NCBI GenBank assembly: GCA_944381935.1
Contig: CALWMN010000023.1
Location: 1 to 41,269, forward strand
Direction: 5' to 3'
DNA length: 41,269 nucleotides
DNA from: an uncultured Mediterraneibacter sp.
GTDB taxonomy: Bacteria; Bacillota; Clostridia; Lachnospirales; Lachnospiraceae
A program made the translations under genes and the position numbers. Shown here piece by piece: positions 20,732 to 41,269 of this stretch. Below the pieces are notes generated by a model that had not been told where the DNA came from, did no database searches, and saw only the letters and a program-made list of their open reading frames with translations. Numbering within the stretch: position 1 is the stretch's first letter; each line of letters opens with the position of its first letter.

Positions 20732-20750
20732 AATTCGTCCTCCTTTCAAA

Positions 20751-22786: not shown

Positions 22787-22837
22787 CTCCCACCAAAGGT
22801 TTTGGAGACCCCTATCATACCATTTGACCAATCCCCT
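22767..22837 (-). tRNA. tRNA-Trp (CCA)
   Basis: A 71-nt cloverleaf on the - strand. The acceptor is AGGGGAT/ATCCCCT with discriminator G; the D-stem is GTCA/TGAT; the anticodon stem is GGGGT/ACCTT with loop CTCCAAA (anticodon CCA); the T-stem is GGGAG/CTCTC with loop TTCGATT. CCA is not encoded. The 3' end has been supplied by the integrated element. A full-consensus promoter lies upstream. Confidence 0.92.
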
Positions 22838-25934: not shown

Positions 25935-25961
25935 CTAAAATATACCTGTTCGTATAAATCA

Positions 25962-26123
25962 GATAGCTCTCCATCCTGCGATGACAGTCATGTCGTTCTT
26001 CACGCCATGCCCAAGAAATAAGATATCAGGGGTTCTTATCCTTTCGGCATTTTCCCCTTTCTGATGATTTCCTCTGTTCCTGATACATCCGTCATCTTAC
26101 TCATGAAAAATGCGACCTCTATC
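25962..26123 (-). ncRNA. lysine riboswitch (L box) of dapA
   Basis: Read on the - strand this ~160-nt leader has the conserved L-box landmarks in order: GATAGAGGTCGC at the 5' side of P1, CATGAGTA, a GCCGAAAGG element, TTGGGCATGGCGTG, GACTGTC, and the closing GGATGGAGAGCTATC. P1 forms between GATAG and CTATC. Lysine binding should favour the downstream terminator and lower dapA expression. Confidence 0.9.
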
Positions 26124-26144
26124 TACGTTTCTGTACTTAATGAA

Positions 26145-26230: not shown

Positions 26231-26259
26231 TTGACATTTTATCCGTATTGTGATAATCT
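26231..26259 (+). promoter_or_regulatory. promoter of the xdh operon
   Basis: TTGACA (26231-26236), a 17-bp spacer and TAATCT (26254-26259). It is divergent from the dapA promoter, 57 bp away. Confidence 0.65.
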
Positions 26260-26269
26260 AAAAGTGCTT

Positions 26270-26307
26270 AAGTGTGAATGACCAGATTTTCATTTACACT
26301 TTTTTTT
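26270..26307 (+). terminator. leader terminator/attenuator ahead of xdh
   Basis: AAGTGTGAATGA (26270-26281) pairs with TCATTTACACTT (26290-26301) with one mismatch and runs into eight T. It lies between the only good + promoter and the first xdh gene, so it should be conditional. The remaining leader to 26357 shows no clear second promoter. Confidence 0.7.
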
Positions 26308-26357
26308 CGCTGTTTTAAAATAAGGATAAGATATGTTTATCGGAAAGGAGAGCCGCT

Positions 26358-27158
26358 GTGATTACAATCGGTAATTATGTGAAGGCAAAGACGCCGGAAG
26401 AGGCATATGAGCTGAACCAGGCGCGCAACAGCAGAGTTATGGGCGGCATGATGTGGATGCGCCTTGGAAATGCCAGGATCAAGACCCTGATCGACTTATC
26501 AGAGCTTGGACTGGACCAGATTGAGGAGACGGACCATGTGTTTAAGATCGGGGCGATGTGCACCCTACGCCAGCTTGAGCAGTGCGAAAGGCTCAGAGAA
26601 GAGTATGGGGATGGGATTGCGGAGGCTGTGCGCCACATTGTCGGCGTGCAGTTTCGCAATCAGGCGACAGTGGGGGGAAGCATATACGGCAGATTTGGAT
26701 TTTCCGATGTGCTGACCGCCCTGCTTGCCCTGGATACATTTGTAGAGCTTTACAGCGGCGGGATTATACGTCTTTCCGAGTTTGTGAACCGCAGGCCGGA
26801 TAAGGATATCCTCCTTTCTATAATTATCCGGAAGGGGAAGCGGAAATTCCGTTATGAGTCGGTCCGCCGGACAAAAACAGATTTCCCGGTGATCGCATGT
26901 GCTGTTGTGACGGGGATTGTACACGGGAGAGAATCCTGGTATTTTACAGTGGGAGCCCGTCCCATGAAGGCGGCGCTTGTGGAAAGAAAATGGCAGATTG
27001 CAAAGGATGTATCAGAAGGGCAGATCAGCGCTTATGCAAAAGAGATCGCCGATGAGTTTACATATGGAACGAATATGAGAGGGAGCGCAGAGTACCGCAG
27101 GCATCTTGCGGAAGTGCTGATTCGCCGCGCTATATGTTCGATTTTGGCAGAGGGGTGA
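26358..27158 (+). CDS. xanthine dehydrogenase-type FAD subunit
   Basis: 266 residues, the FAD-binding subunit of a molybdenum hydroxylase. The N-terminal FAD domain includes TLIDLSELGLDQI and the flavin-contacting VGVQFRNQATVGGSIYGRFGFSDVLTALLALD (about residues 91-122). The C-terminal CO-dehydrogenase-flavoprotein-like domain carries FTVGARPMKA. GTG start with AAGGAG seven bases upstream. First gene of a three-gene operon, passing electrons between the Fe-S subunit and its acceptor. Substrate is probably a purine, from the gene neighbours. Confidence 0.88.
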   Translation: MITIGNYVKAKTPEEAYELNQARNSRVMGGMMWMRLGNARIKTLIDLSELGLDQIEETDHVFKIGAMCTLRQLEQCERLREEYGDGIAEAVRHIVGVQFRNQATVGGSIYGRFGFSDVLTALLALDTFVELYSGGIIRLSEFVNRRPDKDILLSIIIRKGKRKFRYESVRRTKTDFPVIACAVVTGIVHGRESWYFTVGARPMKAALVERKWQIAKDVSEGQISAYAKEIADEFTYGTNMRGSAEYRRHLAEVLIRRAICSILAEG

Positions 27159-27164
27159 GAAGAG

Positions 27165-27629
27165 ATGGAAGTACAGTTTGTTTTGAATAAAAAACAGATC
27201 CGTGTAGATGTAGGTACGGACGCCATTTTATTGAATGTCCTCAGAGACCAGGGGTGTAAAAGTGTAAAATGTGGATGCGAAACGACAAACTGCGGGCTCT
27301 GTACCGTGTGGATCGACGGGAAATCAAGGCTTTCCTGCTCTGTGCTTGCCGCCAGTGTTGCAGGACATGAGATTACGACTCTGGAAGGGGTTGAAAAGGA
27401 AGCGGCAGAGTTTGGCGCATTTCTCGCGGACGAGGGAGCGGAGCAGTGCGGGTTCTGTTCTCCGGGATTCATCATGAATGTGCTTGCGATGCTGCGGGAG
27501 CTTGATAACCCTGGTATGGAAGAGATCAAAGAATACCTTGCGGGCAATCTGTGCAGATGCACCGGATATATGGGGCAGCTCCGCGCGATTCAGAAATATC
27601 TGGAATATAAGAAGGGGGAGATGGAATGA
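27165..27629 (+). CDS. xanthine dehydrogenase-type [2Fe-2S] subunit
   Basis: 154 residues with two ferredoxin clusters. The plant-type one is in CGCETTNCGLCTVWIDGKSRLSC (about residues 36-58). The C-terminal one is in EQCGFCSPGFIMNVLAML and NLCRCTGYMGQLRAI (about 95-145). It relays electrons from the molybdenum centre to FAD. It begins 6 bp after the FAD subunit and overlaps the Mo subunit by 4 bp (ATGA). Confidence 0.92.
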   Translation: MEVQFVLNKKQIRVDVGTDAILLNVLRDQGCKSVKCGCETTNCGLCTVWIDGKSRLSCSVLAASVAGHEITTLEGVEKEAAEFGAFLADEGAEQCGFCSPGFIMNVLAMLRELDNPGMEEIKEYLAGNLCRCTGYMGQLRAIQKYLEYKKGEME

Positions 27630-29929
27630 AGCCAGAGAATATGAGGGTTGTCAATCACCCTGTCGCGAAAGTGGACGCACAGGCGCTGGTGACTGGAAAG
27701 GCTGTGTATACGAACGATCTGGCGCCGTCTGACTGTCTCGTTGTAAAGATTGTCAGAAGTCCCCACGCCCATGCTCTGATCCGGGAGATTGAGACTGCAC
27801 GGGCAGAAGCAGTGCCGGGGATTGAATGTATCCTGACCTATAAAGACTGTCCGGATAAACGTTTTACGATGGCAGGGCAGACTTTTCCGGAGCCGAGTCC
27901 GTATGACCGCCTGATCCTGGACCGGCGTGTCCGCTTTGTGGGGGACGCTGCGGCGATCGTTGCGGGTACGTCTGAGGAAGCGGTCAAAAAGGCGATGAAA
28001 CTGATCAAGATCAAGTATGACGTGCTTGAACCGATACTGGATTTCAGAAAGGCGAAAGACAATGAGATTCTGGTGCATCCGGAGGAAAACTGGAAAAGCC
28101 TGTGCCCGGTTGGAGCGGATAATAAGCGCAACCTGTGCGCCCACGGCGTCAGCGAGTCGGGGGATGTAGAGGCGGTGCTGGAATCCTGCGACTATGTGGT
28201 CGACCGTGTCTATCACACAAAGGCGAACCAGCAGGCAATGATGGAGACATTCCGCACATATACATACCTTGATGCATACGGACGGCTCAACGTGGTATCC
28301 TCCACCCAGGTGCCCTTTCACGTGCGGCGTATTCTCGCCAATGCGCTGGATATCCCCAAACATAAGATCCGCGTGATCAAACCCCGTATCGGCGGAGGAT
28401 TTGGGGCAAAGCAGACGTCCGTTTCGGAGGTGTATCCTGCAATCGTGACCTGGAAGACAGGAAAGCCGGCGAAGATCCTTTTCACCAGGGAAGAATCTCT
28501 GACTGCTTCATCCCCGAGGCACGAGATGGAAATGCATGTCCGTGTGGGCGCGGATAAGGAGGGAAACATCCAGGCGATTGACCTGTATACCCTCTCCAAT
28601 ACGGGGGCGTTTGGCGAGCATGGACCGACGACGGTGGGGCTTTCCGGCCATAAGTCCATTCCGCTTTACGCAAGCCCGAAAGCCTTCCGCTTTTCGTATG
28701 ACGTAGTGTATACGAATGTCATGTCCTCGGGTGCATACCGGGGATATGGGGCGACCCAGGGGATTTTCGCTGTGGAGTCTGCCGTGAATGAGCTGGCGCT
28801 TGGGCTGGGGATGGATCCCACCATCCTTAGGGAGAAGAACATGGTGAGAGAGGGAATGGCCATGCCGGCTTATTATAATGAGACGGCAGAAAGCTGCGCC
28901 CTGGACCGCTGCCTTGCAAGGGCGAAGGAAATGATCGGATGGGATGAGAAATATCCCTGCCGGGATATGGGGAACGGGAAAGTGCGCGGCGTCGGCGTGG
29001 CCCTGGCGATGCAGGGTTCCGGGATCTCCAGTGTGGATACGGGGACTGTCGCCATTAAGATAAATGACGACGGGTATTACAGCCTGATGATAGGAGCGAC
29101 GGATATGGGAACCGGCTGTGATACGATCCTGACGCAGATGGCGGCAGAATGTCTGGACTGTGAGATGGACGATATCCTGGTCCACGGCGTTGACACGGAT
29201 ATTTCTCCTTACGACTGCGGCTCTTATGCTTCCAGCACGACCTATGTAACCGGTATGGCGGTCGTGAAGACGTGCGAGACACTGCGGAAAAAGATCTGTG
29301 AAAGGGGAGCCGGATTTCTTGGCTGTCCGGTAGAAGACGTGGAGTTTGACGGCGAGAGGGTGACGAACTTAAAGACTGGAGAATTTATCACAAGAAAAGA
29401 CATCGGAAACCGGGTGATGAGCTTTAACAATGAGCCGCTCTCAGCCAGCGAGGCGTTTTCTTCGCCCACTTCGCCGCCGCCGTTTATGGCTGGCATTGCC
29501 GAGGTGGAAATTGACAAAGAGACAGGTGTGGCTGAGATGATCGACTATGTGGCAGTTGTGGACTGTGGAACCGTGGTGAATCCGAGCCTGGCGCGCGTAC
29601 AGGTGGAGGGCGGGATTGCCCAGGGGATCGGCATGGCGTTGTTTGAAGATATCGTCTATAATAAGAAGGGGAAAAATTACAGCAATTCCTTTATGCAGTA
29701 TAAGATCCCAAGCCGTCTGGACGTGGGGAAGATACGGGTGGAGTTTGAGAGCAGCTATGAGCCGAGCGGACCCTTCGGGGCGAAATCGATCGGGGAGATT
29801 GTGATTAACACTCCGTCCCCCGCAATCTCCAATGCGATCCAGAATGCGGTCAACGTGACGATAAGGGAACTGCCGATGACGGCAGAAAAGATCTACCGGG
29901 GGATCCGGGAAAAAACAGAAAGAGAATAA
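27626..29929 (+). CDS. xanthine dehydrogenase-type molybdopterin subunit
   Basis: 767 residues, the catalytic subunit. Present are the Moco-contact loop RIGGGFGAKQ (about residues 252-261), the SGAYRGYGATQG block (about 368-379), the QGSGISSVDTGTVAIKINDDG segment, and the C-terminal SGPFGAKSIGEIVINTP with the catalytic Glu (about residue 727). It hydroxylates, or in reverse reduces, a purine or related heterocycle. The locus genes ssnA, ygfK and ygeY are associated with selenium-dependent hydroxylases in other anaerobes, but selenium use here is inference. A terminator follows. Confidence 0.92.
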   Translation: MKPENMRVVNHPVAKVDAQALVTGKAVYTNDLAPSDCLVVKIVRSPHAHALIREIETARAEAVPGIECILTYKDCPDKRFTMAGQTFPEPSPYDRLILDRRVRFVGDAAAIVAGTSEEAVKKAMKLIKIKYDVLEPILDFRKAKDNEILVHPEENWKSLCPVGADNKRNLCAHGVSESGDVEAVLESCDYVVDRVYHTKANQQAMMETFRTYTYLDAYGRLNVVSSTQVPFHVRRILANALDIPKHKIRVIKPRIGGGFGAKQTSVSEVYPAIVTWKTGKPAKILFTREESLTASSPRHEMEMHVRVGADKEGNIQAIDLYTLSNTGAFGEHGPTTVGLSGHKSIPLYASPKAFRFSYDVVYTNVMSSGAYRGYGATQGIFAVESAVNELALGLGMDPTILREKNMVREGMAMPAYYNETAESCALDRCLARAKEMIGWDEKYPCRDMGNGKVRGVGVALAMQGSGISSVDTGTVAIKINDDGYYSLMIGATDMGTGCDTILTQMAAECLDCEMDDILVHGVDTDISPYDCGSYASSTTYVTGMAVVKTCETLRKKICERGAGFLGCPVEDVEFDGERVTNLKTGEFITRKDIGNRVMSFNNEPLSASEAFSSPTSPPPFMAGIAEVEIDKETGVAEMIDYVAVVDCGTVVNPSLARVQVEGGIAQGIGMALFEDIVYNKKGKNYSNSFMQYKIPSRLDVGKIRVEFESSYEPSGPFGAKSIGEIVINTPSPAISNAIQNAVNVTIRELPMTAEKIYRGIREKTERE

Positions 29930-29934
29930 ATACA

Positions 29935-29980
29935 GGGCGGCATGGTTCTAAACAAACCATGCCGCCCTCAGCTTTTTCAT
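29935..29980. terminator. bidirectional terminator between xdh and arcC
   Basis: A perfect 13-bp stem, GGGCGGCATGGTT (29935-29947) with AACCATGCCGCCC (29955-29967), followed by TCAGCTTTTTC. It ends both convergent operons. Confidence 0.85.
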
Positions 29981-30924
29981 CAAAGTGTGATTCTTGTCCC
30001 GGTCTTTCCCAGGATTCCGTCCTTCGCTTTTTCCAGTAGTGTGATCAGTGCCTGCCTTCCCGGTTTGGATTCTGCAAATTCTACAGCCGCCTGAACCTTC
30101 GGAAGCATGGAACCGGGGGCAAAATGCCCTTCTTCCATGTACTGTTTCGCCTCATCTACTGTGACATTATCGAGCCACTTCTCATCCGGCTTCCCATAAT
30201 TGATGGCAGCTTTTTCGACAGCGGTCAGGATGATGAGAAAATCTGCATCCAGTTCTTTTGCCAGCAGGCAGCTCGCGAAGTCCTTGTCGATGACCGCGCT
30301 GGCGCCTTTTAAGTGATTTCCCTGACGCATGACGGGGATACCGCCGCCTCCGCAGGCGATGACCAGATCTCCCGAGTCAACCATCGTGCGGATCGTTCCG
30401 ATCTCGATGATCTCCTGCGGCTTTGGGGAAGCGACCACGCGGCGGTAGCCGCGCCCGGCGTCCTCCTTCATGATATAGTCGTATTTCTCCGCCATAGTGT
30501 CAGCCTGTTCCTTTGAAAGGAAACGTCCGATCGGTTTGGACGGATTTAGAAATGCCGGGTCGTCGGCATCCACGCGGACCTGTGTGATCATAGTCGCGAC
30601 AGGAATGTCTGTGATGCTGCGGTTTAACAGCTCTTCCCGAAGTGCGTTCTGGAGGTCATAGCCAATGTAAGCCTGGCTCATGGCAACGCACACGGACAGA
30701 GGCGTGTTCGGCTGCTGCGGGTCTTCGTGGGTCAGGGCAATCATTGCATTGTTGACCATGCCGACCTGGGGACCGTTCCCGTGTGCCACGACGACCTCAC
30801 AGCCTTCCTCGATCAGATCGACAATAGCTCGGGAGGTGATCTTAACGGCTTTCATCTGTTCAGGAAGAGTGTTGCCGAGGGCGTTGCCGCCCAGGGCAAT
30901 GACAATGCGTTTTTTCTTTCCCAT
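29980..30924 (-). CDS. arcC: carbamate kinase
   Basis: 314 residues of the amino acid kinase fold. IALGGNALGNT at the start, VVAHGNGPQVGMVNNAM (about residues 44-60), the ACGGGGIPV loop and KDFASCLLAKELDADFLIILTAVEKAAINYGKP are diagnostic. It converts carbamoyl phosphate and ADP to ATP, CO2 and ammonia. No arginine deiminase or ornithine carbamoyltransferase is present, so its carbamoyl phosphate probably comes from YgeW. Last gene of the - strand operon, 19 bp after ridA. Confidence 0.93.
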   Translation of the reverse strand: MGKKKRIVIALGGNALGNTLPEQMKAVKITSRAIVDLIEEGCEVVVAHGNGPQVGMVNNAMIALTHEDPQQPNTPLSVCVAMSQAYIGYDLQNALREELLNRSITDIPVATMITQVRVDADDPAFLNPSKPIGRFLSKEQADTMAEKYDYIMKEDAGRGYRRVVASPKPQEIIEIGTIRTMVDSGDLVIACGGGGIPVMRQGNHLKGASAVIDKDFASCLLAKELDADFLIILTAVEKAAINYGKPDEKWLDNVTVDEAKQYMEEGHFAPGSMLPKVQAAVEFAESKPGRQALITLLEKAKDGILGKTGTRITL

Positions 30925-30943
30925 AATGAACCTCCCTGATTTT

Positions 30944-31327
30944 TCAGCCTTCTTTGACAGCCGCGATCGTCTCTACCTCACAGAGAACCCCTTTTGGAAG
31001 TGCTTTGACGGCAACGCAGGAACGCGCCGGATTGCCGGTGAAATATTTTGCATATACTTCATTGAACGCAGCAAAATCAGCCATGTCGGCAAGGAAACAG
31101 GTTGTCTTGACTACGTCCGTAAACGACGCTCCCTGGCTTTCAAGAAGTGCCGCTACATTTTTCATGACCTGCTCTGCCTGTTCCTCAATTGTGGAACCTA
31201 CGACTTCCCCGGTTTCTGGTGAAAGCGGGATCTGACCTGAGAAAAATGCGATTCCATTCAGGATGATTCCCTGGGAATAGGGACCGATTGCTGCGGGAGC
31301 GTTTTTTGTTTCTACATATTTTAACAT
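30944..31327 (-). CDS. ridA: RidA-family enamine/imine deaminase
   Basis: 127 residues with the RidA core: [27 protein letters not shown] at the start, the catalytic Arg in [15 protein letters not shown], and CEVETIAAV at the end. It hydrolyses reactive 2-aminoacrylate-type enamines to keto acids and ammonia. Position in an operon with a diaminopropionate ammonia-lyase, which makes aminoacrylate as an intermediate, gives it a clear task here. AAAGGAGGA precedes ATG. Confidence 0.9.
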
Positions 31328-31380
31328 AATGTTTCCTCCTTTTGTCCTTGATTAAAGTATGTCCTGGGTGTCATTTGTAA

Positions 31381-32574
31381 TTATTTTAAGATCCTCGGCG
31401 TTGATTTTTCTTCGAGTTTCTTAAGGATGTCAGCCGGATCTGCAAATTTTGCCAGGAAGATCATAGCTGCGATAATATATGGCTTATAGCTTGCCTCTTT
31501 GTACAGCGGGTCTCTGTAGCGGTCAAACACGCTTGCGTCAACCTCTCCTTCCTCACAGCTTACGCCCGTGATGTCAGCCGGCAGGCAGTGAAGGTAGAGT
31601 GCTTTCCCGTCTTTTGTCGTGGACATCAGTTCCTCCGTGCATGCCCAGTCCTTGTGCTGTGCGTTCTGGGCGAGGAGTTCTTTCTCCAGTTCCTTGATGC
31701 CTTCCAGATCCCCGTTCCCGTACAGTTCTGTACGTTTTTCCATTGCAGCGAACGGCGCCCAGCTCTTCGGGTATACAATGTCTGCATCCTTGAAGGCTTC
31801 TTTCATGTCGTTCGTCTTTGTGAAGGAGCCGCCGGATTTCTTCGCGTTCTCTGCGGCAACAGCCTCCACCTCCGGGAAGACTTCATAACCTTCCGGGTGG
31901 GCCAGGACAACGTCCATGCCGAAGCGGGTCATCAGTCCGATAACTCCCTGCGGAACCGAGAGCGGCTTGCCGTAGGACGGAGAATATGCCCATGACATTG
32001 CAATCTTCTTGCCCTTTAAGTTCTCAACGCCGCCGAATTCATGGATGATGTGGAGCATGTCGGCCATTGCCTGCGTCGGGTGGTCGATGTCGCACTGCAG
32101 GTTTACGAGGGTCGGTTTCTGCTCCAGGATGCCGTCTTTGTTTCCCTGTGTCACAGCGTCCACAACTTCATGCATATAGGTGTTTCCCTTTCCTATGTAC
32201 ATATCATCGCGGATACCGATGACGTCAGCCATAAAGGAGATCATGTTCGCTGTCTCGCGGACAGTTTCCCCGTGCGCTACCTGGGATTTCCCTTCGTCAA
32301 GGTCCTGCACCTCAAGACCTAACAGGTTACATGCGGATGCGAAAGAGAAGCGGGTACGGGTGGAGTTGTCGCGGAACAGCGAGATCCCGAGACCGCTCTC
32401 AAACACCTTGGTGGAGATGTTGTTTTCCCGCATGTACCGAAGTGCGTCTGCCACGGTGAAGACAGCCTCAAGTTCGTCATCTGTTTTCTCCCAGGTGAGG
32501 AAGAAGTCACCGTTGTACATATCCTTGAAGTTGAGAGAATTTAACTTATCAATATAATCCTGTAACGTTTTCAT
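31381..32574 (-). CDS. ygeW: YgeW-type knotted carbamoyltransferase
   Basis: 397 residues of the aspartate/ornithine carbamoyltransferase superfamily. The carbamoyl-phosphate loop is DNSTRTRFSFASACNLLG (about residues 70-87), and the HCLPADITG motif is near residue 330. It is longer than OTC and lacks the OTC substrate loop, matching YgeW of E. coli, whose natural acceptor is uncertain. In this operon it would run in the phosphorolytic direction, giving carbamoyl phosphate for ArcC. AGGAGGAT precedes ATG. Confidence 0.9.
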   Translation of the reverse strand: MKTLQDYIDKLNSLNFKDMYNGDFFLTWEKTDDELEAVFTVADALRYMRENNISTKVFESGLGISLFRDNSTRTRFSFASACNLLGLEVQDLDEGKSQVAHGETVRETANMISFMADVIGIRDDMYIGKGNTYMHEVVDAVTQGNKDGILEQKPTLVNLQCDIDHPTQAMADMLHIIHEFGGVENLKGKKIAMSWAYSPSYGKPLSVPQGVIGLMTRFGMDVVLAHPEGYEVFPEVEAVAAENAKKSGGSFTKTNDMKEAFKDADIVYPKSWAPFAAMEKRTELYGNGDLEGIKELEKELLAQNAQHKDWACTEELMSTTKDGKALYLHCLPADITGVSCEEGEVDASVFDRYRDPLYKEASYKPYIIAAMIFLAKFADPADILKKLEEKSTPRILK

Positions 32575-32620
32575 ATTTGCTTATCCTCCTGAAATGAACT
32601 GAAATAGTTAATCTTTCTGA

Positions 32621-33934
32621 TTACTCGCTGCAGTAGTTTGCCGGAAGCGCTGCGTAGACAGCCGCGCATGTCACCAGATCCTGCTTCCATGTCTTCTCGT
32701 TCGGGGCGTGTGCCTGCGCTTCTGCCCCGGGTCCGAATCCGATGCACGGGATTCCGTTCCTTCCCATGATGGACACGCCGTTTGTGGAGAAGGTCCATTT
32801 GTCTGTCAGCGGACGGCTCTGGCGCATTTCCAGAGTCTCATCGGCGCCGATCCTCTTATCCCCGTAGAGCGAGGTGTATGTTTTCTCGAGAGCTTTTGTG
32901 ACCTTGTGATCCTTCGGTATCGCCCATGTCGGGAAATAACACTCAATCTCATATACACATCCGGTATAGGAGGGACGGTCGTAGTTATACATGGAGACAA
33001 CAACGTCGTCACCGTATTTCTGCACGCTCGGAAGTGCGCGGATCTCATCGAGGCAGCTTTCCCATGTCTCGCCGAACGTCATGCGGCGGTCAAGGGAAAC
33101 GGCACAGGAGTCAGCAACCGCACAGCGGCTCGGGGAGGTGTAGAAGATCTGGGAAACCGTAACAGTACCCCGCCCGAGAAAGCGTGCTTCCTCCCAGTCC
33201 GGGTTGTACTTCGGGTTGAGCATTTTTACAAGACCTTTGACCTTAGTTCCGTCAGCGTCATCATTTTCATTGAGGGCACGCACGTCCTGGAGAATGTCGG
33301 CCATCTTGTAAATCGCGTTGTCTCCGCGCTCGGGGGCAGATCCGTGGCAGGATACGCCCTTGACGTCGATGCGGATCTCCATACGCCCTCTCTGCCCGCG
33401 GTAGATACCTCCGTCGGTCGGCTCTGTGGATACGACGAACTCAGGACGGATCTTGTCCTCGTTGATGATGTACTGCCAGCAAAGACCGTCACAGTCCTCT
33501 TCCTGGACAGTTCCGACAACCATGATCCGGCAGCCTTCCGGGATCAGGTCCAGATCTTTCATGATCCTTGCGCCGTATACGGCAGATACAAGGCCGCCGC
33601 ACTGGTCCGACACGCCGCGGCCGCCGATCTCGGTGTCGTTTTCATAACCCTTGTACGGGTCGAAGGTCCAGTTCTCGATGTTTCCAATGCCTACGGTGTC
33701 AATGTGTGCGTCATAGGCAATGATCCTGTCCCCGCTTCCCATATAACCGATTACATTTCCCTGAGGGTCAATGATGACTTCATCGAAATCCAGCTTTTTC
33801 ATCTCGGCTGCTATCGTATCGATATGCGCTTTTTCATCGCAGCTCTCCCCCGGGTTCCGGACGATGGCGCGCAGAAATGCGGCCATGTCTTTTTCATAGC
33901 TCTGTGCAGCCTCTTTGATCTTGTTCAAATCCAT
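32621..33934 (-). CDS. ygeY: YgeY-type M20-family hydrolase
   Basis: 437 residues from [18 protein letters not shown] zinc amidohydrolase/peptidase of the M20 family: metal site [10 protein letters not shown] (about residues 73-82), [10 protein letters not shown], catalytic [23 protein letters not shown], and a dimerisation domain with [14 protein letters not shown]. Database names call it a selenium-metabolism hydrolase because of its neighbourhood; hydrolysis of an amide or ureido intermediate of purine breakdown is more likely. The start at 33934 follows AAGGAGAGAG; the frame extends to 34045 but that part is upstream of the ribosome site. Confidence 0.9.
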
Positions 33935-34010
33935 AATTCTCTCTCCTTTTTGATGATAGATGTGAAAAGTTTTCCTGATTGTTTTATTTATATGGAAAGG
34001 AAAAACAGTG

Positions 34011-35216
34011 TTACCTGTCGTTCCCGCCCCAGACAATAGATTCATACCTTCCGGGATCTGTGTCGCCCTCTGTGGAGAAGAGCAGCACCTTTGATTCCTG
34101 ACTCAGCCCGAGGTGTTCTCTAAGCGGTCTGTATTCCTCCATTGTCATGATGCAGGCGAGCGTTCCGAAGGGAGCGGCGCCGGATTCCCCTGACGTTACC
34201 GGGGCGTCGCCTTTGACCGGCGCTGCCAGCATCCTCATGCCTCTTGCCGCAACCCAGTCAGGAGTTGAGATGAAGGTATCTACGTGGTTTTTCAGAATAT
34301 CCCAGGAAATGGTGTTGGGTTCTCCGCAGGCAAGACCTGCCATGATCGTCACCATATCTCCGTCTACGATCCGGATGCCGCCGTCTCCTGCGCATGCGCC
34401 TTTATAAAGGCAGGCAGCGGCGGAAGCCTCCACCACGACTACTTTCGGAGGGTTCTTAGGATACTTGTTCGCAAAGTAACCCTGAACTGCCCCGGCAAGG
34501 GAGCCGACTCCTGCCTGTATGAATACGTGGGTGGGACGGCCACATCCGTTATCATGGAGCTGCTCGTCGGCCTCCATCGCCATCGTACCGTACCCCTGCA
34601 TGATCCAGGCTGGGATCTCCTCGTAGCCGTCCCAGGCAGTATCCTGTACCATGACGCCGTTCTCGGTCTTTTCCGCCATAGCGTTCGCCATGCGCACACA
34701 TTCATCATAATTATATTCTTTGATGGTAGCCTGGGCGCCTTCTGCAAGGATATTGTTGAGCCGCGTCTGGGTTGACCCCTTCGGCATCAGGACAACGGCT
34801 TTCTGCCCCAGTTTGTTGGCAGCCCATGCGACACCGCGGCCGTGATTGCCGTCTGTTGCGGTAAAGAATGTCGCCTGTCCAAATTCCTTTTTTAACTCTT
34901 CCGATGTAAGCACATGATAGGGAAGCTCGGAAACATCCCTGCCGGTCTGTTTTGCTATGTAGCGCGCCATCGCGAAAGATCCGCCCAGCACTTTGAAGGC
35001 GTTGAGGCCGAAACGGTAGGATTCGTCCTTGACATAGACTTCTTTTAGTCCGAGGCGGCCAGCCATGTGGCCGAGCTTTACCAGCGGCGTCACCGTGTAC
35101 TGTGGAAAGCTCTCATGAAAGGCCCTGGCTTTGGAAATCTCCTCCAGGCTCATGATCTTTAGTTGGGAATCCTCGGTTTTCGGCATCTTGTTTACTGCCC
35201 ACTTTATTGTTTCCAT
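34011..35216 (-). CDS. ygeX: 2,3-diaminopropionate ammonia-lyase
   Basis: 401 residues, fold-type II PLP enzyme. Recognisable are the cofactor Lys in [15 protein letters not shown] (about residues 68-82), [15 protein letters not shown], and the [17 protein letters not shown] phosphate-binding region. It splits 2,3-diaminopropionate to pyruvate and two ammonia by way of aminoacrylate. In recent models of bacterial urate degradation it acts on a late ring-derived intermediate. AAGGAGG precedes ATG; 37 bp after the regulator gene. Confidence 0.93.
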
Positions 35217-35253
35217 CGTGAAACCTCCTTAAAATTATTGACCTGATCCAGGA

Positions 35254-35913
35254 TTATCCTTTGTCCATGTAGCTGTAAAGCGTGAATTTTGATATTCCCA
35301 GGAGGGAAGAGACCTTGTCGCCGGACTTTGTGATGAGAAATGCACCGGCGTTGTTCAGATACTGTACTACAGCTACTTTGTCGTCTTTGTTCATCAGTGC
35401 GACCGGCTTGCCTACTGCAGCGATTGCCTGTTCGATAAGCTGGTCAAGCAGTTCTGTCACATTATGAGTGATTGTCTGAGGATCCTTCCTGCCGCTCTCA
35501 TCAGAAGTTTCGCTTTCCTGTCCTGTCTGTATGAGAGGGCGCAGGGCAGACTCAACAGCAAGCAGGGAAGTGATATCATAATTTAAAGAAAAGATATACG
35601 CGATTCTTCCGTTTTCATCCCTGATATAAAGTGTGCTGGATTTCAGGATACGCCCGTCTTCTGTTCTTGTGAGATAGGACAGCCTGTCTTTGATCCTGGA
35701 CGGATCGGCGCTGAGCGTTTCGAGTACGATGCCGGACGGTCCGTCCCCGGTCTGCCGGTTAGATACCTGACCGTTTTCAATATATACGATTGACTTGTCC
35801 AGATCTTCTCTGGTCAGGTCATGAATGACAACCTCACAGGAACTTCCGAACTGAACAGCAAGTCCGTGTGCAAGCTGTTTGAGGAAGTCAAGCTGCTGCT
35901 CCAAGTTTCTCAC
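35254..35913 (-). CDS. PAS_6/HTH_22 transcriptional regulator (YheO/DauR type)
   Basis: 219 residues. A PAS-like sensor domain (about 10-125: GSSCEVVIHDLTREDLDKSIVYIENGQVSNRQTGDG...) is joined by an acidic linker to a DNA-binding HTH_22 domain (about 150-217: RKDPQTITHNVTELLDQLIEQAI...VQYLNNAGAFLITKSGDKVSSLLGISKFTLYSYMDK). It is the first gene of the ygeXYW operon and divergent from ssnA, so it is the obvious local regulator, probably sensing a purine-pathway compound. The start is GTG 35913 with a poor ribosome site; TTG at 35904, nine bases downstream, is an alternative. Confidence 0.88.
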   Translation of the reverse strand: MRNLEQQLDFLKQLAHGLAVQFGSSCEVVIHDLTREDLDKSIVYIENGQVSNRQTGDGPSGIVLETLSADPSRIKDRLSYLTRTEDGRILKSSTLYIRDENGRIAYIFSLNYDITSLLAVESALRPLIQTGQESETSDESGRKDPQTITHNVTELLDQLIEQAIAAVGKPVALMNKDDKVAVVQYLNNAGAFLITKSGDKVSSLLGISKFTLYSYMDKG

Positions 35914-35946
35914 CTGCCTTTTCCAGAATAGTGCCTCTATAGATTC

Positions 35947-35974
35947 ATCATAGCATAAAAAATGAGAGAGTCAA
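35947..35974 (-). promoter_or_regulatory. promoter of the regulator-ygeXYW-ridA-arcC operon
   Basis: On the - strand TTGACT (35969-35974), a 16-bp spacer and TATGAT (35947-35952) preceded by TGC. It would be expressed from next to the palindrome pair. Confidence 0.75.
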
Positions 35975-35982
35975 TACTTTTT

Positions 35983-36017
35983 CTAAAAAATTTTTAGGTG
36001 ATCTAAAAATTATTTAG
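35983..36017. promoter_or_regulatory. paired palindromic operators between divergent promoters
   Basis: Two 15-bp palindromes of the form CTAAA-N5-TTTAG at 35983-35997 and 36003-36017. Their centres are 20 bp apart, i.e. on the same face of the helix. They lie between the regulator and ssnA -35 boxes, so one bound regulator could control both operons. Confidence 0.7.
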
Positions 36018-36025
36018 AATATATG

Positions 36026-36054
36026 TTGCATTTATATAATTTTAATGGTATTCT
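36026..36054 (+). promoter_or_regulatory. promoter of ssnA-permease-ygfK
   Basis: TTGCAT (36026-36031), a 17-bp spacer and TATTCT (36049-36054). A small palindrome TTCTATAGAA (36051-36060) covers the -10 and start region. Confidence 0.65.
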
Positions 36055-36118
36055 ATAGAAAATGAGAGGCGTTTATAGACGAAATGCACAGAAAATGAGT
36101 GGAAAAGGAGATGAGGAA

Positions 36119-37453
36119 ATGCTGATTTTGGGAAACGGCAGAGTCGTTACGAGAGACGGGAAACGTCCCTTTCTTGAGAGCGGCGCTGTGGTCATCGAAG
36201 GGAACACAATCTGCCGGATAGGAGATCTGGAAGAAGTGCGTGCGGCCTATCCGGGAGCAGAGTATATTGATGCAAAGGGCGGTTTGATCATGCCTGCTTT
36301 TATTAATGTACATGAACATATTTACAGTGCGTTTGCGAGAGGGCTTTCTGTGAATGGGTATGATCCGAAAGGATTTCTTGATATTCTGGACGGCATGTGG
36401 TGGACGATCGACAGGAACCTGACGCTTCATGATACTTATCTGAGCGCTGTGGCGACTTACATCGACAGTATAAAAAACGGCGTCACGACAGTGTTTGACC
36501 ACCATGCAAGCTTCGGCTCAATAAGGGGTTCTCTTTTTGAGATTGAGAGGGCTGCGAAGGAAACGGGGGTGAGATCCTGCCTGTGCTATGAGATCTCGGA
36601 TCGTGACGGGAAGGACAAGGCACGGGAATCGGTTATGGAAAATGCGGAATTTATCCGTCATGCCCTGAAAGATGATTCGGGAATGATCGCGGGAATGATG
36701 GGGATGCATGCCCAGTTTACAATTTCTGATGACACGTTTGGCCTGGCGGCAGAGAATAAACCGGATGAGGTGGGATATCACATCCATGTCGCGGAGGGCA
36801 TCGAGGATCTGCATCACTGCCTGAAGCATTACGGGAAGCGGATTGTGGACAGGCTGATGGATCACGGCATCCTCGGGGAGAAAACACTGCTTGGCCACTG
36901 TATTTACATCAATCCGCATGAGATGGATCTGATCCGGGATACGGGCACGATGGTGGTCCATAACCCGGAATCCAACATGGGAAATGCCTGCGGATGCCCG
37001 CCCACTATGAAACTGGTACACCGGGGGATCCTGACCGGTCTTGGAACGGACGGCTATACCCATGACATGATGGAATCCTTTAAGGTGGCGAATGTCCTGC
37101 ACAAACATCATCTCTGCGACCCGACCACCGCCTGGGCAGAGGTACCCCAGATGCTTTTCGAGAATAACGCCAGGATAGCGGGACGCTATTTTAAACAGGA
37201 ACTCGGCGTGTTAAAAGAAGGGGCGGCGGCAGATGTGATCATTGTGGATTATGACCCTCTTACACCGATGAACGAAGGAAATATAAATGGACATCTTGTG
37301 TTCGGCGTGACGGGACATGACGTCGTGACGACAGTGGCGAACGGAAAAGTGCTGATGAAGGACAGGAGACTGACGGAGATTGACGAGGAGAAAGTGATGG
37401 CGGACTGCAGGCAGGCGGCAGCAGGCCTGGCGGATCGGATCAATAGCAGATAG
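36119..37453 (+). CDS. ssnA: SsnA-type amidohydrolase
   Basis: 444 residues of the metal-dependent amidohydrolase superfamily related to chlorohydrolases and guanine deaminase. Metal ligands are visible as HEH (65-67) in PAFINVHEHIYS, His223 in HIHVAEG, His260 in LLGHCIYI and Asp311 in GLGTDGY. It probably deaminates or hydrolyses a purine-derived heterocycle; the exact reaction is not settled. The start at 36119 is set by AAAGGAG at 36104-36110; the frame extends up to 36062 but that start overlaps the promoter. First gene of the + operon, divergent from the regulator. Confidence 0.9.
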   Translation: MLILGNGRVVTRDGKRPFLESGAVVIEGNTICRIGDLEEVRAAYPGAEYIDAKGGLIMPAFINVHEHIYSAFARGLSVNGYDPKGFLDILDGMWWTIDRNLTLHDTYLSAVATYIDSIKNGVTTVFDHHASFGSIRGSLFEIERAAKETGVRSCLCYEISDRDGKDKARESVMENAEFIRHALKDDSGMIAGMMGMHAQFTISDDTFGLAAENKPDEVGYHIHVAEGIEDLHHCLKHYGKRIVDRLMDHGILGEKTLLGHCIYINPHEMDLIRDTGTMVVHNPESNMGNACGCPPTMKLVHRGILTGLGTDGYTHDMMESFKVANVLHKHHLCDPTTAWAEVPQMLFENNARIAGRYFKQELGVLKEGAAADVIIVDYDPLTPMNEGNINGHLVFGVTGHDVVTTVANGKVLMKDRRLTEIDEEKVMADCRQAAAGLADRINSR

Positions 37454-37518
37454 GCGGGGGAAGCGTTCCCTGCTGAAGACCAGATAATAAAAAACGGTGA
37501 GAAAGGATTAAGAGGAAA

Positions 37519-38949
37519 ATGAGTGACAAGAGGATGACGAAAGACAATTCAGAACTTTTTAAATGGGATGGAAACCCGTCTGTAGGACAGATCCTGCCGC
37601 TGGCGGCGCAGCACGTACTGGCGGCGGTAGTAGGATGCGTAACGCCTGCCATCCTGGTGGCGAACGCGGCGAACAATGCAGGGGGCAATGTGAACATGGG
37701 GCTTTTGATCCAGGTGTCCCTTGTGTTTGCTGCACTTTCCACACTGCTGCAGCTCTATGCCAATAAGATCAAGCTGGGGTCCGGGCTTCCGGTTATCATC
37801 GGGGTCAGCTTTGCGTATGTACCGACGATGACGGCGATCGCTGCACAGGCAAAAGATGTGGATACAATCTTCGGGGCAATGGTCATCGGAGGTATTGTGG
37901 CAATTCTGGTGGGTCTCTTTATCCGGCAGATCCGTAAGGTTTTCCCGCCCCTTGTTATTGGCACGGTTATCTTTGCCATCGGACTGTCCCTGTATACGAC
38001 GGCAGTCAACTATATGGCAGGCAACTCGTCCAATACATATGAACTGGTTGTGGAGCAGCAGGGGAAGACGGAGGCTCTTGTGTACGGTTCCTGGCAGAAC
38101 TGGCTGGTGGCGTTCATTACTCTTGGCATTGTTGTTCTGCTGAATCATTATGGGAAGGGACTGTTCAAGCTTGCATCCATCCTGATCGGGCTTCTCTGCG
38201 GGTATGTAGTGGCGCTGTGCTTTGGAATGGTGGATTTCTCTTCCCTTTCCTCAGCAGGCTGGTTCCAGATCCCGATGCCGCTGGCATTTGGCATGAAATT
38301 TGATATATCAGCGATCATTCCGCTGGCGATCCTGTTCCTCGTCAACTCTATCCAGGCAATGGGAGATTTCTCTGCCACGACCAGCGGCGGTATGGACAGA
38401 CTTCCGACAGATGACGAATTAAACGGCGGAATCATCGGATATGGCGCGAGCAATATGGTATGTGCGTTTTTCGGATGCCCCCCGACTGCCACATACAGCC
38501 AGAATGTCGGCATTGTCGGTTCCACGAAGGTAGTGTGCCGGAAAGTATTCTCAGTTGCGGCTTTGATCCTTCTGGTCGCGGGGCTGATCCCGAAATTCTC
38601 CGCGCTGCTGCGCACGATTCCGCAGTGTGTGCTGGGAGGCGCCGTCGCGTCTGTATTTGCCTCTATCGCAATGACCGGAATCAAACTGCTCGTGACAGAG
38701 AAACTGACATACCGCAATACAACGGTAGCGGGGCTGTCAATCGCGATCGGAATGGGCGTCTCTCTGTGCGACGGATGCTTAAACCAGATGACCGCAAGCA
38801 TCCACAGTGCGCTTCATATGAGTATGAGCCTGGAAAGCTTCCAGTCGATCATCAATAATACATTCGCCTCATCACCGGTCGTGCTGGCGACGATCTTTGC
38901 GGTGTTTCTCAATCTGATCCTGCCGAAGGACAAGCCGGATACAGAGTAG
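37519..38949 (+). CDS. NCS2-family xanthine/urate permease
   Basis: 476 residues, about 12-14 membrane segments. LPLAAQHVLAAVVGCVTPAILVA near the start and the NCS2 signature QNVGIVGSTKVVCRKVF (about residues 328-344) identify the nucleobase-ascorbate transporter family. GDFSATTSGGMDRLPTDDELNGGI carries the conserved TM8-9 substrate residues. It is a proton or sodium symporter for xanthine, uric acid or uracil; the locus points to xanthine/urate. It lies 65 bp after ssnA and 35 bp before ygfK. Confidence 0.92.
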   Translation: MSDKRMTKDNSELFKWDGNPSVGQILPLAAQHVLAAVVGCVTPAILVANAANNAGGNVNMGLLIQVSLVFAALSTLLQLYANKIKLGSGLPVIIGVSFAYVPTMTAIAAQAKDVDTIFGAMVIGGIVAILVGLFIRQIRKVFPPLVIGTVIFAIGLSLYTTAVNYMAGNSSNTYELVVEQQGKTEALVYGSWQNWLVAFITLGIVVLLNHYGKGLFKLASILIGLLCGYVVALCFGMVDFSSLSSAGWFQIPMPLAFGMKFDISAIIPLAILFLVNSIQAMGDFSATTSGGMDRLPTDDELNGGIIGYGASNMVCAFFGCPPTATYSQNVGIVGSTKVVCRKVFSVAALILLVAGLIPKFSALLRTIPQCVLGGAVASVFASIAMTGIKLLVTEKLTYRNTTVAGLSIAIGMGVSLCDGCLNQMTASIHSALHMSMSLESFQSIINNTFASSPVVLATIFAVFLNLILPKDKPDTE

Positions 38950-38984
38950 GAAACAGAAGGCTCGGAAAACAGGAGGAAATAATT

Positions 38985-41269
38985 ATGAGTGACATTATGA
39001 GACCTATGTCTTTTGAACAGCTTCTCGGATGGATCTTAACAGAAAAAAAAGAGAACGGCACAGTGTTCGGGACACACCACCCATACTATGCTGCCCCGGA
39101 GTACAACCGGACGATCTTTGGGCGTCCGCTTGAAACGCCGGTGGGACCGGCAGCAGGTCCCCACACGCAGCTTACGCAGAATATCGTGGCTGCGTACTAT
39201 ACGGGAAGCCGTTTCTTTGAGCTTAAAACCGTGCAGATTATGGATGGGGCGGAGCTTTCCGCCTGCGTAAAGAAGCCGTGCATTAAGGCGGACGACGAGT
39301 GCTACAACTGTGAGTGGTCTACGGAGCTGTATGTCCCGCAGGCGATGGAAGAATATATCAAGGCATGGTTTTTGTGCAAGGTGATCTCCAAAGAGTTTGG
39401 CATTGGAAGCATGGATGGCTTCCAGTTTAATATCAGTGTGGGGTATGATCTCGCGGGAATCAAATCAGAGAAGATCGATCATTTCTTAAATACGATGAAA
39501 CAGGCAGAGGATTCCCCGGTCTTCCGGGAGTGCCGGGACTATCTGCTGGAACATGCGGACCTGTTCGAGCGCGTGACAAGAGAGGACATCGAGGGGATCT
39601 CGGGTGAGATCTGCAATTCCGTGACGATCTCAACACTTCACGGATGTCCTCCGCAGGAGATCGAGAGGATCGCGATGTACCTGATTACGGAGAAGGGATT
39701 CCATACTTTTATCAAATGCAATCCGACGCTGCTTGGCTATGAATATGCGAGAAAAACAATGGACGATATGGGGTACGATTACGTTTCGTTCGGAGATTTC
39801 CATTTCAGGGATGATCTGCAGTACGAAGATGCGGTCCCAATGCTGACCCGTCTGATGAAAGTCTGTCAGGAGAGGAACCTGGAGTTTGGTGTGAAGATCA
39901 CGAATACATTCCCGGTGGATGTAAAGCAGAATGAACTTCCAAGCGAAGAGATGTACATGTCGGGCAAATCCCTTTACCCGCTGTCGATCTCACTCGCGGC
40001 AAAGCTTACGGAGGAGTTTGGCGGAAAGCTGCGGATATCCTATTCGGGAGGGGCTGATTTCCATAATATAAAGGGAATTGTAGATGCCGGAATCTGGCCC
40101 GTGACTGTAGCGACAACACTTTTGAAACCGGGCGGATATGACAGGATGGAGCAGATGGCAAAGCTGGTGGAAAAAGAGAATGTGGTATTCGACGGCGTAA
40201 GCGTGGAGGGAACGAAAAAGCTTGCAAAGGACGCGAAAGCCAGTCCCCACCATGTCAAGGCTGTAAAGCCGCTTCCATCCAGAAAGATCAAAAAACAGGT
40301 GCCGCTTATTGACTGCTTCACAGCTCCCTGCCGTGAAGGCTGCCCGATACATCAGGATATCACCGCCTATCTGCAGCTTGTTGAGGAAGGGAAATATGAG
40401 GAAGCGCTCCGGGTGATCACGGAGAAGAACCCGCTTCCATTTATCACAGGGACGATCTGCTCCCATGCGTGCATGAGCAAGTGCACACGCAATTTTTATG
40501 AGGAGCCGGTCCATATCCGCGCGATGAAACTGATCGCCGCAGAGAACGGCTATGACGCTCTGCTGGAAAAGATGGAGGCGCCTGCTCTGACAAGAGGGAA
40601 AAAGGCGGCGGTGATCGGCGGCGGTCCGGCCGGTATGGCAGCGGCATATTTCATGAGGCGGGCAGGCGTGGAAGTCACTCTGTTTGAGAAAACAGGCGCT
40701 CTTGGGGGTGTGGTCCGCCATGTCATCCCCGGGTTTAGGATCTCGGAAGATGCGATAGAAAAAGACGCGTCCCTCCTTGAAAAAATGGGGGTAAATGTCT
40801 GTCTGAATTCTGAGATCACAGAGATCGGGATGCTGAAAAATGCAGGATATACAGACGTGGTCCTTGCAGTGGGGGCGTCGGAACCCGGAGTCCTCCGCCT
40901 GGAGAAAGGAGAATCCGTCAACGCGCTTTCCTTCCTTGCGGATTTTAAAGCCAGCGACGGAAACCTGGATATCGGGAAAAACGTTGTGGTAATCGGCGGC
41001 GGAAATACGGCGATGGATACGGCGAGGGCGGTGAAGCGCACCAGAGGAGTGGAGCACTCGTATCTCGTATACAGACGGACAAAGCGTTACATGCCGGCGG
41101 ACGAGGAAGAACTCGTCATGGCTGTAGATGACGGCGTGGAATTTATGGAGCTTCTTGCGCCGGCCAGACTTGAAGACGGGAAGCTTCTGTGCAAAGTGAT
41201 GAAGCTGGGAGATTTTGACGCATCAGGACGGCGCGGCGTCGTCGAGACGGCAAAAGAGAAGGAAATCCC
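38985..41269 (+). CDS. ygfK: YgfK, putative selenate-reductase-type oxidoreductase (3' end beyond window)
   Basis: 761 codons are visible of a protein that is usually about 1,000 residues long; the frame is open to the last base. It starts MSDIMRPMSFEQLLGWILTE after AGGAGG at 38971. Residues ~1-430 form a dihydroorotate/dihydropyrimidine-dehydrogenase-like barrel. Then comes an Fe-S domain like dihydropyrimidine dehydrogenase domain I (APCREGCPIHQDITAYL at ~446, TICSHACMSKCTRNFYEEP at ~489). Next is an FAD site (AVIGGGPAGMAAAYFMRRAG at ~541) and an NAD(P)H site (VVIGGGNTAMDTARAVKR at ~667). C-terminal ferredoxin clusters should follow outside the window. The selenate-reductase name comes from E. 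coli; a role in reducing a purine intermediate fits this locus better. Confidence 0.92.
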   Translation, partial: MSDIMRPMSFEQLLGWILTEKKENGTVFGTHHPYYAAPEYNRTIFGRPLETPVGPAAGPHTQLTQNIVAAYYTGSRFFELKTVQIMDGAELSACVKKPCIKADDECYNCEWSTELYVPQAMEEYIKAWFLCKVISKEFGIGSMDGFQFNISVGYDLAGIKSEKIDHFLNTMKQAEDSPVFRECRDYLLEHADLFERVTREDIEGISGEICNSVTISTLHGCPPQEIERIAMYLITEKGFHTFIKCNPTLLGYEYARKTMDDMGYDYVSFGDFHFRDDLQYEDAVPMLTRLMKVCQERNLEFGVKITNTFPVDVKQNELPSEEMYMSGKSLYPLSISLAAKLTEEFGGKLRISYSGGADFHNIKGIVDAGIWPVTVATTLLKPGGYDRMEQMAKLVEKENVVFDGVSVEGTKKLAKDAKASPHHVKAVKPLPSRKIKKQVPLIDCFTAPCREGCPIHQDITAYLQLVEEGKYEEALRVITEKNPLPFITGTICSHACMSKCTRNFYEEPVHIRAMKLIAAENGYDALLEKMEAPALTRGKKAAVIGGGPAGMAAAYFMRRAGVEVTLFEKTGALGGVVRHVIPGFRISEDAIEKDASLLEKMGVNVCLNSEITEIGMLKNAGYTDVVLAVGASEPGVLRLEKGESVNALSFLADFKASDGNLDIGKNVVVIGGGNTAMDTARAVKRTRGVEHSYLVYRRTKRYMPADEEELVMAVDDGVEFMELLAPARLEDGKLLCKVMKLGDFDASGRRGVVETAKEKEI

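Follow-up and report, generated by a model that had tools for sequence, protein, structure and literature searches.

A variant locus for anaerobic uric-acid breakdown in a gut Lachnospiraceae, with a conserved tandem palindrome beside its own regulator, a probable off-cluster HyuA and an XdhD-like molybdenum hydroxylase

The 41,269-nucleotide window analysed here is the entire contig C23 of a 3.04-Mb Mediterraneibacter genome (54 contigs, 99.9% complete). It carries, we conclude with considerable confidence, most of a locus for reductive uric-acid fermentation from a gut Lachnospiraceae of the Mediterraneibacter type, the remainder being on contig C34; this reading, including the mechanism set out below, is the best explanation of the data as a whole. 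The locus is of a known kind, serving oxygen-free uric-acid breakdown, in a variant arrangement. New here are a conserved DNA switch beside the locus's own regulator, a HyuA step probably encoded away from the cluster, and a three-gene molybdenum hydroxylase (the xdhBCA trio) that probably belongs to the XdhD clade.

The cluster is organized as three operons: xdhBCA on the plus strand, regulator-ygeX-ygeY-ygeW-ridA-arcC on the minus strand, and ssnA-NCS2-ygfK on the plus strand. Scores are given as bits over the curated cut-off (NCBIfam models; Pfam for the regulator). The minus-strand operon encodes, from its distal end, an arcC/yqeA-like carbamate kinase (29980..30924; TIGR00746 387.8/358.25), a ridA-family enamine/imine deaminase (30944..31327; TIGR00004 165.1/106.25), the knotted carbamoyltransferase YgeW, which would phosphorolyse a ureido group to carbamoyl phosphate (31381..32574; TIGR03316 800.6/500; relative of PDB 2yfk, 750 bits), the M20 hydrolase YgeY, predicted to act on the remaining ureido group (about 32621..33934; TIGR03526 656.5/321.5), and the diaminopropionate ammonia-lyase YgeX (34011..35216; TIGR03528 626.6/532.25; relatives of PDB 5ygr and 4d9g). 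On the plus strand lie the aminohydrolase SsnA, expected to open the ring after yanthine reduction (about 36119..37453; NF005540 668.2/444), an NCS2 nucleobase permease of the urate/xanthine type (37519..38949; above TIGR00801 at 311.3/291.8, below the subfamily model TIGR03173 at 347.8/414.15), and YgfK, assigned to the reductive dearomatisation of yanthine (38985..41269; TIGR03315 1084.7/835.3, the model being matched along the first three quarters of its length). Scores fall below cut-off for all three xdh subunits, for the subfamily model of the NCS2 permease and for the equivalog model of RidA; the remaining NCBIfam-covered families lie above it. SsnA, YgfK, YgeY and YgeX thus stand together in one cluster, which marks it as reductive uric-acid type, and YgeW with carbamate kinase marks the ATP-yielding variant. 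A sequence-only reading of the window had named these genes in this three-operon layout, and all are present, all but the three xdh subunits scoring as their families. Its proposal of an anaerobic purine/urate degradation locus is borne out by the SsnA, YgfK, YgeY, YgeX, YgeW and ArcC family scores, and carbamate kinase as the ATP-yielding step is supported by the ArcC and YgeW scores.

The chemistry of each step is taken from the literature. The same reading had described the biochemistry of YgfK, SsnA, YgeY and YgeW as open, a view overtaken in 2025, when the reactions were worked out (PMC12507026, PMC12990295): urate is reduced to yanthine by XdhD or XdhAC, yanthine is converted to ureidomethyl-hydantoin by YgfK plus SsnA, HyuA yields diureidopropionate, YgeW and YgeY yield diaminopropionate, YgeX yields pyruvate, and carbamoyl phosphate is converted to ATP. 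The order of ureido cleavage remains disputed, and it, the electron donor of XdhAC and the stereochemistry are still under discussion (PMC12507026; PMC12990295, a commentary by Percudani). Mapped onto the present genes, urate would be taken up by the NCS2 permease and reduced to yanthine by a molybdenum enzyme, most likely the C34 XdhAC with a labile selenium cofactor (SelD, YqeB, YqeC). YgfK plus SsnA would reduce and open the ring to ureidomethyl-hydantoin, and a HyuA-type hydantoinase from contig C4 would form diureidopropionate. YgeW would then release carbamoyl phosphate, which ArcC would convert to ATP, YgeY would give diaminopropionate, and YgeX would produce pyruvate and ammonia via 2-aminoacrylate, which RidA would hydrolyse. 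The PAS_6-HTH_22 regulator would most likely bind two tandem 15-bp palindromes between the divergent promoters and set both operons jointly, probably as an activator.

The end of the window is a contig end, and ygfK is thereby truncated by the assembly. The gene resumes on C34 of the same genome (C34:3-707), where positions 767-1012 of the TIGR03315 profile are found; relative to the YgfK of one relative, C23 stops at residue 761 and C34 starts at residue 765. The order after ygfK is yqeC (PF19842 match, starting 40 bp after ygfK), a yqeB-MocA-like fusion (TIGR03309 327.7/220), a multi-4Fe-4S ferredoxin of 182 residues, the fused FeS-Mo enzyme XdhAC (TIGR03311 1274.9/830.45), a MocA-ModE-like fusion and modABC-like genes, the last named by reading of the open reading frames. 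Open frames run through the cluster genes of both the window and C34. The closest named relatives of this XdhAC come from Mediterraneibacter and other Lachnospiraceae metagenome-assembled genomes, some of them chicken-titled. Named relatives show the gene order given above for C34 uninterrupted, most with hyuA added; in Mediterraneibacter catenae, contig L023 spans the cluster from ssnA to the mod genes. Contig C37 encodes SelD (394.8/125) with a single in-frame TGA, as expected of a selenoprotein SelD, so that selD, yqeB and yqeC, the signature of a selenium-dependent molybdenum hydroxylase system, occur together in the genome. The genes that the sequence-only reading had proposed to seek past position 41,269 were thereby located: yqeB, yqeC and molybdenum-cofactor genes on C34, selD on C37 and a hyuA-like gene on C4. 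Growth of C. difficile on xanthine and urate needs selD and yqeB (PMC11448449).

The ferredoxin gene lies immediately upstream of xdhAC in 43 of 78 loci (two of 80 were dropped for too little sequence upstream of xdhAC), and four loci outside the genus (L053, L077, L085 and L087) keep it beside xdhAC on stretches without ygfK, ssnA or yge genes. This placement fits, though not universally, the suggestion of Li et al. that clostridial reductases use ferredoxin (PMC12507026). As a separate observation, the XdhAC proteins of Desulfosporosinus (L053), Adiutrix (L076) and Eubacterium barkeri (L087) are 79-84% identical to that of C34 despite the distant taxa, and the L053 and L087 stretches lack ygfK, ssnA and yge genes; either strong conservation or horizontal transfer may account for the likeness.

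No hyuA was found on C23 or C34. An orphan HyuA is encoded on C4 (571/393.25), near PTS_EIIC_2 and SAM-HAT genes. In most named genus relatives, hyuA sits between ygfK and yqeC, the exceptions being L025, L037, L044, L047 and L081. Among the 55 ssnA-bearing genus genomes (three without ssnA are excluded), 41 encode the cluster-type HyuA, which is 41-44% identical to the C4 protein. The two types are distributed in a complementary manner: the C4 type occurs in 11 of the 14 genomes without cluster hyuA (75-100% identical, counting one 57% match in G010) versus 4 of the 41 with it (Fisher p 3.2e-6, with no correction for ancestry). In addition, the HyuA proteins inside the clusters of two other Clostridia loci (L094 and L088) are 58-61% identical to the C4 type. 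The missing ring-opening step is thus probably encoded elsewhere in the genome.

The minus-strand operon is headed by a YheO-type regulator of 219 residues (35254..35913, minus strand) in which the PAS_6 and HTH_22 domains both exceed their Pfam cut-offs (PF08348 121.1/27; PF13309 74.1/29.6), confirming the PAS-HTH regulator proposed earlier; NCBIfam holds no model for it, and no PDB sequence matched it at E up to 1. The 205-bp region between the regulator and ssnA (35914-36118) has a fixed design kept in the genus, with two divergent promoters flanking two palindromes. The promoter of the regulator-ygeX operon (35947..35974, minus strand) is sigma-70-like, TTGACT-16-TATGAT with a TG before the -10, and is conserved in relatives; it was listed by a consensus scan that was not enriched overall (18 sites versus 13.4 +/- 3.1 in shuffles). 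That of the ssnA operon (36026..36054, plus strand), a promoter-like TTGCAT-17-TATTCT, was read from the sequence, is conserved in relatives and lies below the threshold of the scan, which instead lists TTTAGA-16-TATAAT at 36013-36040, overlapping box 2. The predicted operator, recognized from sequence and conservation, consists of box 1, the palindrome CTAAAAAATTTTTAG (35983..35997), and box 2, CTAAAAATTATTTAG (36003..36017), 20 bp from box 1. The spacing between a box and its nearest -35 element is 8 bp on both sides, so both promoters face the same arrangement; assuming transcription starts about 7 bp past each -10, the box centres would fall near -50 and -70.

These two boxes are the sole sites with at most one mismatch in the 3.04-Mb genome, and no pair at that stringency arose in 5000 shuffles of the 205-bp region. 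The tandem pattern (at most three mismatches) occurs in 52 of the 58 genus genomes and its reversed control in 0 of 58. Sixty of its 62 places lie 102-378 bp upstream of ssnA, and the remaining two (G004 and G043) are on contigs without ssnA. The three genus genomes without ssnA (G017, G018 and G055) have no tandem site; three more genomes gave no hit, of which G019 carries two boxes at a spacing of 19 bp (L154), G044 has its ssnA cut by a contig end, and G010 is unexplained. Among 50 distinct promoter regions (out of 54; two more loci with both genes were excluded for lengths of 0 or 5260), all 29 genus-like regions contain at least one box at up to two mismatches, 25 of them two or more, and 9 of the 21 distant regions contain one or two. 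Two variations were seen apart from this pattern. Some genomes have the tandem operator twice, making four boxes: the second pair follows the first at 147-224 bp in L163, L164 and L169, and at 35 bp in L044 and L047. A second tandem-like pair in the present genome (C1:303340-303375) was rejected as a further regulon target: both of its boxes have two mismatches, a stringency at which the reversed control is commoner, and it lies at the 3' end of a gene read from its open frame as aldolase-like.

The ridA gene lies between ygeW and arcC in 22 of the 38 loci holding both, and in these 22 YgeW is at least 93% identical. The protein scores below the RidA equivalog (PRK11401, 116.3/222) and passes the broader Rid family cut-off alone. 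The chemistry of the YgeX enzyme class passes through 2-aminoacrylate. As this is the classical RidA substrate (PMC6742949), a protective role for RidA is likely. The main text of Li et al. (PMC12507026) does not mention RidA, and no paper linking RidA with urate was found in the open-licence literature.

Several observations weigh against this account of the locus. Fused XdhAC-type enzymes have also gone under the name xanthine dehydrogenase, both in the TIGR03311 model and for E. faecalis EF2570, which is described as selenium-dependent (PMC11448449), so the C34 enzyme may not be, or not solely be, a urate reductase; because of this naming, we infer that activity and do not read it from the family. 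The ferredoxin is not immediately upstream of xdhAC in 35 of the 78 loci, and of the 38 loci with both ygeW and arcC, 12 yielded no RidA and a further 4 have it outside the interval between those two genes. The neighbours of the C4 hyuA are unrelated, no operator box was found at up to three mismatches in the 19.9 kb around it, and of the 14 genomes without cluster hyuA, 3 gave no HyuA match whatsoever at E 1e-60; the Fisher test also carries the ancestry limit given with it. A locus that is incomplete and non-functional without hyuA, capable of partial urate reduction only, is conceivable, as hyuA is missing from both contigs and yqeC starts only 40 bp after ygfK. We regard it as very unlikely in view of the open frames of the other cluster genes, the C4 HyuA score above the family cut-off, its complementary distribution and its likeness to the cluster HyuA of L094 and L088. 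For the operator, two matches at up to two mismatches occurred in 3 of 100 dinucleotide shuffles of the window, a single box at two mismatches is rarer genome-wide than its reversed control (9 versus 30), and 12 of the 21 distant promoter regions show no box at two mismatches. With the window-level shuffles and the genome-wide control unimpressive, the case rests on conservation and not on one genome. The palindromes might instead be the target of another factor or a DNA-curvature element: they are very A/T-rich, and the 12 distant loci without a box do carry a regulator homologue. This is the less probable reading by a wide distance, since the genus pattern stands at the ssnA promoter in nearly all of its places and is missing where ssnA is missing, and boxes are still found in eight loci (Flavonifractor, Anaerobutyricum and a Clostridiales) whose regulator homologues are no more than 54-59% identical.

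The tandem palindromes are therefore very likely the operator of the PAS/HTH regulator, as judged from comparative sequence data. The symmetrical upstream boxes and the weak ssnA promoter suggest activation, and the regulator probably acts as activator of both operons. Repression is another possible sign of control, by analogy with the C. jejuni YheO-type Cj1387c, which represses an adjacent RidA-family gene, a linkage described as common (PMC4519771). In the open-licence literature, nothing on urate was found for regulators of urate genes or for the YheO type. A bolder proposal, which we offer tentatively and consider doubtful as a whole, is that YheO-type PAS_6-HTH_22 proteins are a dedicated uric-acid fermentation switch in gut Lachnospiraceae and Oscillospiraceae, binding tandem CTAAAAAWTTTTTAG boxes placed symmetrically between the operon promoters and sensing not urate but a late D-configured or enamine intermediate (2-aminoacrylate, diaminopropionate or a ureido amino acid). 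If true, such sensing would explain the regulator's recurrent pairing with RidA.

The trio comprises xdhB, the FAD subunit, YgfM/XdhB-like (26358..27158; best match NF041019 at 79.5 bits, TIGR03312 of the YgfM family at 69.1 and XdhB models at about 62, all below cut-off), xdhC, the 2Fe-2S subunit (27165..27629; NF041020 133.3/290, NF043084 128.3/217), and xdhA, the molybdenum subunit (27626..29929; NF043082 634.4/780, TIGR03313 541/1101.9), all on the plus strand. It scores neither as a canonical XdhABC (molybdenum subunit 634.4/780 and 597.7/916) nor as the fused Mo/FeS enzyme of TIGR03313, its FeS gene being separate. Two trees place the molybdenum subunit beside E. coli XdhD and away from XdhA and XdhAC (99/98, or 100/96 once the long PaoC branch is removed); XdhD is represented there by a single sequence with a long branch, and the program issued a warning about long branches coming together. 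The FAD-subunit tree, in which xdhB joins YgfM weakly (65/31), neither supports nor refutes the grouping. At the position of XdhD Glu606, the window protein and all 4 other genus sequences of the alignment have Glu, which the XdhA-type and XdhAC rows lack; the column is gappy, and among the 20 trio-type sequences 4 show Ser, Val, Asn or Gln instead. A further argument, that the trio lacks the purine-binding residues of vertebrate xanthine dehydrogenase (positions in bovine numbering), was dropped: E. coli XdhA also lacks them, so the test does not discriminate. From these comparisons, the trio is probably a purine-linked enzyme of the XdhD clade. The separate convergent xdh operon described in the sequence-only reading stands as an arrangement, xdhA and arcC converging on a bidirectional terminator-like hairpin (29934..29968; from a consensus scan giving 20 sites in the region versus 15.3 +/- 3.7 in shuffles). 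It is not simply the locus's xanthine dehydrogenase, because of the XdhD grouping, because the trio occurs in 56 of the 58 genus genomes (79-89% identity), including two without ssnA, and because it was seen at about 10 kb or less from ssnA in just 6 of the 58 (the present genome G000, and G007, G011, G023, G038 and G050). The two genomes counted as lacking it are G018 and G042, the latter matching solely XdhAC-like proteins. The distance to ssnA is 124 kb on one contig in G012 and about 1.2 Mb in G029; the two are on different contigs in many drafts, and contig breaks may hide a few more adjacent cases.

What the trio catalyses can be framed as two alternatives, neither of which reaches probability, with the balance left to other chemistry. 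The first reading, that it oxidizes xanthine or hypoxanthine to urate and so feeds the pathway, replacing a canonical XdhABC held by about half of the relatives, is quite possible. Canonical XdhABC (judged by a second match to XdhA, at 31-35% identity and no fewer than 276 bits) is present in 31 of the 58 genus genomes and missing in 27, including all six with the trio beside the cluster (p 0.007, with no ancestry correction). Where fetched clusters lack an adjacent trio, 9 of 17 have the canonical enzyme at that same convergent place (L162, with 1476 bases, was dropped from the 20 cluster loci), and outside the genus an NCS2 permease gene lies at most two genes upstream in 11 of 36 trio-homologue loci, two of these permeases being family-tested. 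This reading has to contend with the tree position beside XdhD and not XdhA, with scores under the xanthine dehydrogenase cut-offs, and with a trio that is nearly universal in the genus regardless of the canonical enzyme; moreover, the six genomes may represent one event, and draft assemblies can miss genes. The idea that the trio is instead a second urate reductase of the E. coli XdhD-YgfM kind, forming yanthine beside or instead of XdhAC, is a lesser possibility. It draws on the sister position to XdhD and the Glu606-aligned Glu, and on 5 of the 36 distant loci that carry hyuA-like, ssnA-like and DHODH-like (UacX-like) genes (families tested in one). The single long XdhD branch with its warning, the variable Glu column and the weak FAD-subunit tree count against it, as does the XdhAC already present in the ssnA-ygfK operon. 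At order level, the trio was found in 48 of 295 genomes (E 1e-150) and ssnA in 35 (E 1e-95; 24 of these pass the family cut-off, and 11 weaker of 46 matches were excluded), with both in 11 versus 5.7 expected (p 0.013, uncorrected), leaving 37 of the 48 trio genomes without ssnA at that threshold.

The wider survey returned further arrangements around such enzymes. The five distant loci just mentioned (L190, L195, L196, L200 and L201, a distant family plus one further) combine the XdhD-clade trio with ssnA-like genes that are 33-36% identical, the one tested scoring below the SsnA cut-off, and at least four of them hold a second xanthine dehydrogenase-like gene; by gene content, they are possibly another urate/purine cluster variant. 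In L175, L176, L179, L205 and L206, the genes after the xdh trio are those of SelD and of a member of the cysteine-desulfurase family (tested in L175), which suggests a selenium-dependent trio in these distant relatives; a similar-looking desulfurase, by reading of open frames, lies near selD on C37 of G000 (L217). In canonical xanthine dehydrogenase operons of the genus (L151, L155, L156, L158, L165, L168, L169 and L170), xdhA is preceded by an amidohydrolase gene, whose product has 21-24% identity to SsnA, and by a YqeB/XdhC-CoxI-like gene; we would guess the amidohydrolase to be a guanine deaminase. The neighbour of the trio is dapA in 12 of 20 fetched trio loci (18 of the 20 picked for ssnA not being near), and likewise in the window (24993-25877), where a lysine riboswitch (RF00168, 110.7 bits; 25956-26129, minus strand) lies upstream of dapA, between it and the xdh operon. 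Farther away, mobile-element genes occupy 14688-22476, namely a phage-type integrase (14688-15953), a rolling-circle Rep_trans gene (16605-17816) and a DDE transposase (20980-22476), with an ABC transporter gene among them (19486-20421) and a tRNA-Trp just past them (22766-22837).

Gut bacteria clear part of the urate that humans are unable to break down. According to Li et al. (PMC12507026), how these genes are regulated across gut bacteria "remains poorly understood"; a named regulator and a short, conserved operator open that question to testing. Judging from the HyuA result, the pathway can probably look incomplete in a genome while the missing step is encoded elsewhere, and cluster-based prediction of urate-degrading species may therefore misjudge some. 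The XdhD-clade result warns that not every three-gene xdh operon is a xanthine dehydrogenase. Follow-up is best directed at the regulator-operator module and at the HyuA encoded apart from the cluster.

Among known systems, the E. coli reductive cluster (ygeW-ygeX-ygeY-hyuA-yqeA and ygfK-ssnA-ygfM-xdhD; Li et al. 2025, PMC12507026) shares ygeW, ygeX, ygeY, carbamate kinase, ygfK, ssnA, an NCS2-type transporter and yqeB/yqeC with the present locus. Here, however, XdhAC replaces XdhD-YgfM beside ssnA-ygfK, hyuA is elsewhere, ridA lies inside the operon, the layout is divergent, and a PAS_6-HTH_22 regulator is found where E. coli has YgeV. The uric-acid clusters of C. sporogenes and C. difficile (Liu et al. 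2025, as described in the commentary PMC12990295; PMC12507026, PMC11448449) have in common with it a fused XdhAC-type Mo/FeS enzyme, selenium-cofactor genes, ssnA, ygeX and ygeY, but C. difficile has UacX and UacY (PMC12507026) in contrast to the YgfK and YgeW-ArcC found here. The window trio shares its molybdenum-subunit clade and the Glu at the Glu606 position with the E. coli XdhD-YgfM urate reductase, from which it differs in having its Mo and FeS parts in separate genes, in its 37.4% identity to XdhD, and in that most trio genomes of the order lack ssnA. Finally, the Cj1387c-Cj1388 pair (PMC4519771), a YheO-type PAS6-HTH protein with a RidA partner, matches the regulator described here in domain architecture and in having a RidA-family gene under or near it, whereas the Mediterraneibacter gene stands first in a urate operon, opposite a conserved tandem palindrome.

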